Below, one piece after another: positions 51,660 to 52,228 of a stretch of 64,000 nt of DNA. The stretch's first letter is position 1. Each line of letters begins with the position of its first letter. The notes beneath the pieces were generated by a model. That model saw only the letters and a list, made by a program, of their open reading frames with translations. It ran no database searches and had not been told where the DNA came from. Origin of the DNA: Bacteroidota bacterium (GTDB taxonomy: Bacteria; Bacteroidota; Bacteroidia; AKYH767-A; 2013-40CM-41-45). The translations under genes and the position numbers were made by a program. The stretch is from the NCBI GenBank assembly GCA_003389385.1, contig QQVM01000020.1, positions 62,001 to 126,000 of the forward strand, written 5' to 3'.

Positions 51660-51693
51660 AAGTTCGATTGAAATATTGAATTACATAAGCGGA
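51660..51693 (+). repeat. Direct repeat, copy 1: leader of tRNA-Gly
   Basis: The 34-base stretch beginning AAGTTCGATTGAAATATTGA and ending with the first five tRNA bases (GCGGA) recurs identically at 51778-51811. It precedes the truncated tRNA-Gly copy. The 118-base offset shows a tandem duplication of the leader plus the tRNA 5' part. Confidence 0.9.
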
Positions 51694-51753
51694 TTAGCTC
51701 ATTCCGCCTTCGGTGGCAAAGCCAGCTTCGGCGGATAAATTAGTAGAGCACGA
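51689..51753 (+). pseudogene. Truncated tRNA-Gly copy with a palindrome in the D-loop
   Basis: The sequence begins GCGGATTAGCTCAT, which matches the 5' end of the intact tRNA-Gly at 51807 with a 1-base deletion. At the D-loop it is interrupted by a 33-base imperfect palindrome (51703-51735, TCCGCC ... GGCGGA, with inner TGGC/GCCA). It then resumes with AGTAGAGCACGA, matching the D-stem 3' side, and stops resembling the tRNA. The anticodon arm and T-arm are missing. It cannot encode a functional tRNA. Confidence 0.75.
51703..51735. repeat. Palindromic insertion in the tRNA-Gly copy
   Basis: A 33-base imperfect inverted repeat. The outer stem is TCCGCC/GGCGGA (6 bp) and the inner stem is TGGC/GCCA around AAA, with internal mismatches. 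Each half also resembles a small TTC-capped hairpin (CCGCC-TTC-GGTGG). It is absent from the intact tRNA-Gly 70 bases downstream. Confidence 0.7.
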
Positions 51754-51777
51754 ATACCCGTCTGAAATTAGAGTAAG

Positions 51778-51811
51778 AAGTTCGATTGAAATATTGAATT
51801 ACATAAGCGGA
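51778..51811 (+). repeat. Direct repeat, copy 2: leader of intact tRNA-Gly
   Basis: An identical second copy of the 34-base repeat at 51660-51693, running into the first five bases of the intact tRNA-Gly. The element GAAATATTGAA inside it (51788-51798) also occurs just before the second tRNA-Leu copy and the intact tRNA-Leu. Confidence 0.9.
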
Positions 51812-51879
51812 AGTAGCTCATTTGGTAGAGCACGACCTTGCCAAGGTCGGGGTGGCCGGTTCGAGCCCGGTCTTCCGCT
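51807..51879 (+). tRNA. tRNA-Gly (anticodon GCC)
   Basis: A 73-base cloverleaf. The acceptor stem is GCGGAAG/CTTCCGC, the D-arm GCTC...GAGC, and the anticodon stem CGACC/GGTCG with loop TTGCCAA gives anticodon GCC. The variable loop is GGGTG and the T-arm GCCGG-TTCGAGC-CCGGT. The discriminator is T and no CCA is encoded. A terminator follows directly. Confidence 0.95.
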
Positions 51880-51882
51880 CTT

Positions 51883-51914
51883 AAAAAAGTCCCTCTACGC
51901 GAGGGATTTTTTGT
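51883..51914 (+). terminator. Terminator after tRNA-Gly
   Basis: The stem TCCCTC / GAGGGA with loop TACGC is flanked by A6 before and T6 after, 10 bases past the tRNA end. Confidence 0.85.
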
Positions 51915-51955
51915 TTCAGGCTATGAGTTCTTTTAATTTTACTTGAGTGTTAGAA

Positions 51956-52040
51956 GCAGAGTGAATGAACTGAATGAGTGTGAGAAACAGTGTGAGTGAA
52001 GAGAATGAGTGTGCGTGTCAGAAACAGGGTGAGTGAACAG
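51956..52040 (+). repeat. Degenerate GTGAGTGAA-type repeats
   Basis: Two related units, 51972-52000 and 52003-52040, share GAATGAGTGTG, then AGAAACAG, then GTGAGTGAA. A shorter relative precedes them (GAGTGAATGAACT). They lie between the two tRNA blocks. I see no coding capacity or known function. Confidence 0.6.
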
Positions 52041-52084
52041 AAATCTCTATTAATGTTCAAGCCATTTTCAATGACACTGCCTTT

Positions 52085-52127
52085 GCCCGGGTGGTGGTCC
52101 CGATTGCTATCGGGATGGTAGACACGC
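52085..52127 (+). pseudogene. Truncated tRNA-Leu copy 1 with a palindrome in the D-loop
   Basis: GCCCGGGTGGTGG matches the first 13 bases of the intact tRNA-Leu at 52287. In place of AAC an 18-base perfect palindrome is present (TCCCGATTGCTATCGGGA, 52098-52115). The tRNA sequence then resumes as TGGTAGACACGC and ends. Anticodon, variable and T arms are missing. Confidence 0.8.
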
Positions 52128-52185
52128 CTAAGGGTGATTATTGAAAGAGAGATCGAGGAGAATGGAAATATTGAAATAAGTTTTT

Positions 52186-52228
52186 GCCCGGGTGGTGGTC
52201 CCGATTGCTATCGGGATGGTAGACACGC
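52186..52228 (+). pseudogene. Truncated tRNA-Leu copy 2 with a palindrome in the D-loop
   Basis: Identical in structure to the copy at 52085-52127, 101 bases downstream. The palindrome TCCCGATTGCTATCGGGA is at 52199-52216 between the two D-stem halves. It lies directly upstream of the leader of the intact tRNA-Leu. Confidence 0.8.

Follow-up and report, generated by a model that had tools for sequence, protein, structure and literature searches.

Some homing genes of fungal mitochondria (e.g. at atp6 of Allomyces) bring a replacement end for their target gene: the nuclease gene is inserted, one end of the target gene is duplicated, the target remains functional and its old end is displaced. 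SegB of phages T4 and T6 is a free-standing GIY-YIG homing endonuclease that cuts within tRNA genes and is enriched beside tRNAs, and it drives recombination-dependent tandem amplification of the tRNA together with segB (PMC13096335). Microhomology links the 5' end of the tRNA with the 3' end of segB (PMC13096335). A search of the open-access literature returned no description of a chromosomal system that combines GIY-YIG genes with half tRNAs. The locus described here looks like part of a tRNA-borne mobile DNA of Bacteroidota that is apparently undescribed. We consider its truncated tRNA copies to be, probably, what a family of small cassettes left behind: displaced tRNA halves. These cassettes would be mobile or amplifying, would have tRNA genes as their targets and would be linked to a GIY-YIG nuclease of approximately 82 amino acids.

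The window, by which we mean the whole 64,000-nt stretch of DNA analysed, comes from a Bacteroidota genome (G000). ARAGORN and Rfam agree on its intact tRNAs, a tRNA-Gly(GCC) at 51807-51880 and a tRNA-Leu(TAA) at 52287-52372; these two are the only tRNAs that Rfam reports above threshold in the window. Three truncated copies, one Gly (51689) and two Leu (52085 and 52186), lie upstream of their intact counterparts, each with a hairpin at the D-loop, exactly where the original prediction had placed them. The promoter-like stretch, leader, spacer, tRNAs, tRNA copies and palindromes described next are all on the plus strand. Reading of the sequence 5' of the Gly copy identifies a stretch, TTAATTTTGCAC (51620-51645), which we take to be promoter-like and of the Bacteroidota type, and from which the broken copy would be transcribed before the intact tRNA-Gly. 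The partial Gly copy consists of about 30 nt of leader followed by the tRNA up to and including the first anticodon-stem bases. Its tRNA part (51689-51753) comprises the acceptor 5' strand, the D-stem, a hairpin in place of the D-loop and the anticodon-stem start. The 5' segment GCGGATTAGCTCA occupies 51689-51701, and the 3' side of the D-stem plus the anticodon-stem start occupies 51741-51753. Between them, a 33-nt nested palindrome (51703-51735) has TCCGCC/GGCGGA outer arms and a TGGC-AAA-GCCA hairpin inside. A spacer (51754-51776) separates the copy from the duplicated leader, which occurs at 51659-51688 and again at 51777-51806, directly 5' of the intact tRNA-Gly. The intact gene begins 118 bp after the start of the Gly copy.

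The two Leu copies form a perfect 101-bp tandem that runs into the intact Leu-TAA gene. Each unit holds the tRNA as far as the beginning of its anticodon stem (first unit, 52085-52127; second, identical unit, 52186-52228) and has the AAC of the D-loop swapped for the palindrome TCCCGATTGCTATCGGGA (52098-52115 and 52199-52216, respectively). This palindrome has 4 strand matches, at 2 places, in the window compared to 0.09 expected in shuffled sequence, so it is not expected by chance. Two different palindromes are present, as had been noted, and both sit at the D-loop position; neither is a pure insertion, because AAC is lost from the Leu copies and TTTGG from the Gly copy. Two other observations were made nearby. 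Short degenerate repeats of the GTGAGTGAACAGAA type occupy 51960-52050, between the Gly and Leu genes, and a long ORF beginning MSATLPSRRLGKSTLSQYL runs from 52624 onward, shortly 3' of the Leu tRNA.

Repeats of this kind could arise during assembly, and the genome is in 24 contigs with some copies at contig ends. However, the window copies are in the interior of a 285-kb contig, and the same anatomy is found in G172, a genome that consists of one contig, and in Niabella ginsengisoli, on a contig of 1.34 Mb. We therefore reject assembly error as the origin of the copies; the chance that they are an artefact is vanishingly small.

The remaining tRNA loci of the window genome were searched for local partial duplicates, and the flanks were then read; genome-wide counts derive from searches by pattern and by family. 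Broken copies were found for several further tRNAs. Val-TAC copies carry D-stem hairpins as well as hairpins that replace the anticodon arm, two Asp-GTC copies and a copy downstream of the Arg-TCT gene have anticodon-arm hairpins, an fMet copy has a D-loop hairpin, in a Cys copy the D arm and the anticodon arm each carry a hairpin, and a copy downstream of Ser-TGA has a hairpin at the end of the T-arm. At this last locus (L042, 1600-2200), downstream 172-bp tandem units contain the tRNA-Ser 3' end, its terminator and other palindromes. In the 16S-23S rRNA spacer (C22:16957-17091, L130) there are 3' halves of tRNA-Ala in which both the anticodon arm and the T-loop carry hairpins. Calling found no intact tRNA in this spacer stretch, which also contains a second degenerate tRNA whose anticodon arm is GAT-like. 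Genome-wide, the pattern TCCCGN{4,12}CGGGA occurs at 30 places, compared to 9 for the control. By reading, 20 of the 30 have a stem of 6 bp or longer; of these 20 hairpins, 14 fall in broken tRNA copies (the others being 2 terminators, 1 helix of 23S rRNA and 3 unassigned).

The same arrangement extends well beyond this genome. A class-wide pattern, AGAGCATCCCGN{8,14}CGGGA, describes the end of a D-stem followed by a palindrome that replaces the anticodon arm. It matches 54 places in 32 of the 395 genomes of the class, compared to 3 for the reversed control, and by this pattern search 24 of 197 genera carry it. Partial tRNA copies account for 25 of the 30 pattern loci that were fetched; nearly all of them adjoin an intact tRNA of the same type, often in tandem. 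ARAGORN labels some broken copies as tRNA-Glu, tRNA-Phe or tRNA-?. We also scanned 84,980 named species genomes. Among the matches listed, tRNA-linked ones come only from Bacteroidota and one record named "bacterium", and those checked in other phyla have no tRNA link. The window copies are one instance of a wider Bacteroidota pattern.

The hairpins at tRNA-linked sites are real. Stems reach at least 7 bp at 53 of 60 tRNA-linked sites compared to 7 of 67 unlinked sites, and inner pairs of the tRNA-linked hairpins vary on both sides of the stem. Depending on the tRNA, the hairpin may stand in for the D-loop, the anticodon arm or the T-arm; its position in the displaced half recurs for each tRNA type across genera, at arm/loop borders, and its distance from the truncation is typically one arm. 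The sequences themselves are highly diverse (TCCCG, CCCCGA, TCCGCC, TCTCGTC, CCTGCCTGCC). The original prediction of a targeted process is supported with respect to tRNA genes, given the 14 tRNA-borne hairpins of the window genome and the spread over genera. It fails with respect to the D-loop as the specific site, since the hairpin is found in the anticodon arm (Val, Arg), in the anticodon loop (Ala, Ser) and in the T-arm (some Leu).

At many loci, a small GIY-YIG ORF (approximately 82 aa) separates the intact tRNA from the displaced half. Units are 70-460 bp in size, occur in tandem and come in two layouts. In the first (type 5'), a hairpin-bearing displaced 5' half is followed by an optional ORF and then by the intact tRNA; ORF-containing examples are at a Gly locus (L209) and a Met locus (L161). 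In the second (type 3'), the intact tRNA is followed by its terminator, the ORF, a hairpin-bearing displaced 3' half and a copy of the terminator, as seen with an ORF at L137, L155, L210, L102, L115 and the Val locus of the window genome. Common to both layouts is an intact tRNA at one junction; at the other junction stands a displaced half, and a GC-rich hairpin fills its break. The most extensive array (L286; G146 C9:904500-911500) has ten tandem 457-bp units, with a GIY-YIG ORF and fMet 3' pieces, behind one intact fMet gene. It should also be noted that the ORF often continues into the displaced tRNA, giving a C-terminal ...SEH(P) tail (L126, L093, L125, L092).

An intact tRNA paired with a partial one is the classic outcome of integrase-mediated, site-specific integration of ICEs and phages at tRNA genes (PMC9897764), and the copies could be leftovers of such events. 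We see only a slim chance of this. The units are tandem and far below the kilobase scale of such elements, the units read encode a GIY-YIG nuclease, with no integrase noticed in them, the partial copies contain hairpins, and both 5'-half and 3'-half versions exist.

The ORFs share the GIY-YIG catalytic domain and its motif residues. Four tRNA-linked ORFs match PF01541, and Y17, G19, R27 and E63 (alignment numbering) are invariant in 16 ORFs. We built a model from the tRNA-linked ORFs and ran it on 60 genomes; it can show that a linked clade exists and does not describe all GIY-YIG genes. Within this limit, 24 of 37 strong matches have a same-strand tRNA no more than 110 bp away and none has an opposite-strand one, while 7 further strong matches sit at the ends of tRNA fragments. 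Only 6 of 59 weaker, generic GIY-YIG matches are tRNA-linked. As the best Pfam matches are mostly elsewhere and only one subfamily is linked, we reject tRNA linkage as a property of GIY-YIG genes generally. A tree of 49 linked ORFs clusters by target tRNA, with 25 changes compared to 36.2 when labels are shuffled (none of 200 shuffles is as low), although, the proteins being short, support for many forks is weak. One protein query gave no match in collections of phages, plasmids and viral contigs. We conclude that the travelling companion of the tRNA gene is the small GIY-YIG nuclease gene rather than the palindrome.

The window itself lacks such an ORF: no small GIY-YIG match was found in it, and no nuclease ORF is within reach of the Gly/Leu locus. 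In the window genome as a whole, nuclease ORFs accompany the Val copy set only, so an ORF-bearing origin of the window copies rests on homology to relatives. Most orthologous Gly/Leu loci of relatives have no broken copy. An ORF is present at this locus in 2 of 29 relatives (G024 and G007), both of which also have Leu 5' copies with a hairpin, a presence/absence polymorphism. In G007, which belongs to the same family as the window genome, two GIY-YIG ORFs are found at the same Leu-TAA gene, each followed by a displaced Leu 3' copy whose anticodon arm and T-loop carry hairpins; in G024, a shortened ORF follows the Leu gene. The hairpin site in the Leu-TAA D-loop, GGTGGTGG[hairpin]TGGTAGACACG, is identical in G000, G007 and G024. 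In G134, which belongs to another family, three ORF units follow the same Leu gene, with a T-arm hairpin. Because G007 and G024 share the Leu D-loop hairpin site and carry the ORF, we read the window copies as members of the same family that lack the ORF, and hence name them ORF-less derivatives. From sequence comparison, the Gly and Leu copies of the window are best read as type 5' units without an ORF that would derive from a GIY-YIG cassette.

A functional role for the broken copies as RNA, for example as leader structures that govern processing of the following tRNA, would fit the placement of type 5' copies between promoter-like sequence and tRNA. It would also fit hairpins whose structure is conserved through changes on both stem sides. 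We nevertheless regard this as very improbable, since type 3' copies are downstream of the tRNA terminator, the broken copy is missing from most orthologous loci and the folds predicted for the copies are in most cases hardly better than those of shuffled sequence.

The palindromes were also followed outside tRNA copies. TCCCGAN{3,10}TCGGGA has 9 matches in the window genome compared to 3 for the control, so by copy number it is not REP-like there. G007 has 151 matches, including a dispersed 18-bp palindrome, TCCCGATAGCTATCGGGA (e.g. L394-L413), whose copies are in intergenic-looking DNA and are sometimes nested in one another. None of 20 sampled G007 sites is in a tRNA copy, and no consistent target-site duplication was seen among them. 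Enrichment in tRNA copies is observed in the window genome, whereas in G007 the family is dispersed, with no link to tRNAs at the 20 sampled sites. Wide occurrence with no tRNA link is what the original prediction itself had named as refuting it, and G007 shows this outcome for one part of that prediction, namely that the palindrome is itself the element that targets tRNA genes.

That prediction had favoured a small, non-autonomous element inserting into D-loops. We find self-insertion of a palindromic element, into D-loops or into other hairpin loops, improbable, despite the loop or arm position of palindromes in displaced tRNAs and the nesting of palindromes in the Gly copy and in G007. The dispersed G007 copies show no preference for hairpin loops (flank complementarity at 23 sites is 3.17 compared to 3.34 for shuffles, p = 0.75), which leads us to reject palindrome insertion into hairpin loops in general, and they lack a consistent target-site duplication. 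The hairpin sequences are too varied for one element, and no intact tRNA carrying a palindrome was seen. Targeting of tRNA genes is thus not the work of the palindrome itself, which marks where the displaced half is broken.

Another member of the window genome's genus (G001) presents a different case. Upstream of an intact tRNA-Gly (L060, 1226-1501), it has four tandem tRNA-Gly 5' halves in which the anticodon arm is deleted, with neither palindrome nor ORF. Such arrays of hairpin-less halves, together with the dispersed, tRNA-unlinked palindromes of G007, suit an account in which ordinary tandem tRNA duplications decayed, a dispersed Bacteroidota palindrome landed in the resulting neutral DNA and the GIY-YIG genes are passengers. 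Both observations also count against the cassette reading. We judge decay to be unlikely, though deserving of serious consideration. It does not account for the concentration of window-genome hairpins in broken tRNA copies, which make up a tiny fraction of the genome, for the recurrence of the hairpin site by tRNA type across genera (at arm/loop borders, typically one arm from the truncation), or for ORFs that are linked on the same strand only and form clades that follow tRNA type.

Under the cassette reading, the nuclease would cut the tRNA gene where the hairpin now stands, or close to it. Recombinational repair through a tRNA half would then insert or amplify the cassette while one tRNA is kept intact, and the hairpin, or in G001 the deletion, would abolish the cut site in the displaced half. 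The G001 halves, with the anticodon arm deleted and no hairpin, fit such a destroyed cut site. The cassette would thereby duplicate one half of its target tRNA, spare the other copy and amplify in tandem. Cleavage of cognate tRNA genes by the tRNA-linked ORFs is putative, with the clustering of ORF clades by tRNA type as an indirect indication of specificity, and mobility is likewise proposed. The displaced half is broken by the hairpin and the adjacent intact tRNA retains the same sequence, so the intact tRNA would still hold the anticodon or D-loop cut site, with no protection apparent, which is a point against this reading. For a broader claim the balance seems to us even: that Bacteroidota hold an undescribed class of chromosomal mobile DNA, a minimal GIY-YIG cassette specialised by tRNA type that inserts into tRNA genes, with an intact tRNA always at one junction so that the host survives, a hairpin at the cut site disarming the displaced half, and ORF-less derivatives, like those of the window, that spread or amplify.

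If this is correct, it would account for pseudo-tRNA fragments that are numerous in Bacteroidota and that may be miscalled when tRNAs are annotated. Homing-nuclease biology would extend from phage and organelle genomes to the chromosomal tRNA genes of a major phylum. Furthermore, the hairpin in each displaced half would reveal a candidate target site, making nuclease specificity testable across many tRNA types.

Among known systems, REP-like repeats resemble these loci in that TCCCGA..TCGGGA palindromes are dispersed in some relatives, but the palindromes of the window genome are mostly within broken tRNA copies. Integrated ICEs and phages are likewise flanked by an intact and a partial tRNA (PMC9897764); the Bacteroidota units are far smaller and tandem, with a GIY-YIG ORF, a hairpin in the partial copy and no integrase noticed. 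At the protein level, the closest solved structures to the ORFs are the UPF0213 proteins 1zg2 and 1ywl, followed by SLX1 (7cq2). Unlike the tRNA-linked subfamily, generic members of this small GIY-YIG group recovered in the same search mostly lack a tRNA link. The mitochondrial case of the Allomyces atp6 type differs in its targets, which are protein-coding mitochondrial genes rather than bacterial tRNA genes with a hairpin at the break. SegB is the nearest known case, with a GIY-YIG gene beside tRNAs and tandem units as in the Bacteroidota loci. However, SegB is phage-borne and a full-length, target-recognising protein, and hairpin-scarred half tRNAs are not reported for it, whereas the Bacteroidota units are chromosomal, encode a catalytic domain only (approximately 82 aa) and displace half of the target tRNA.
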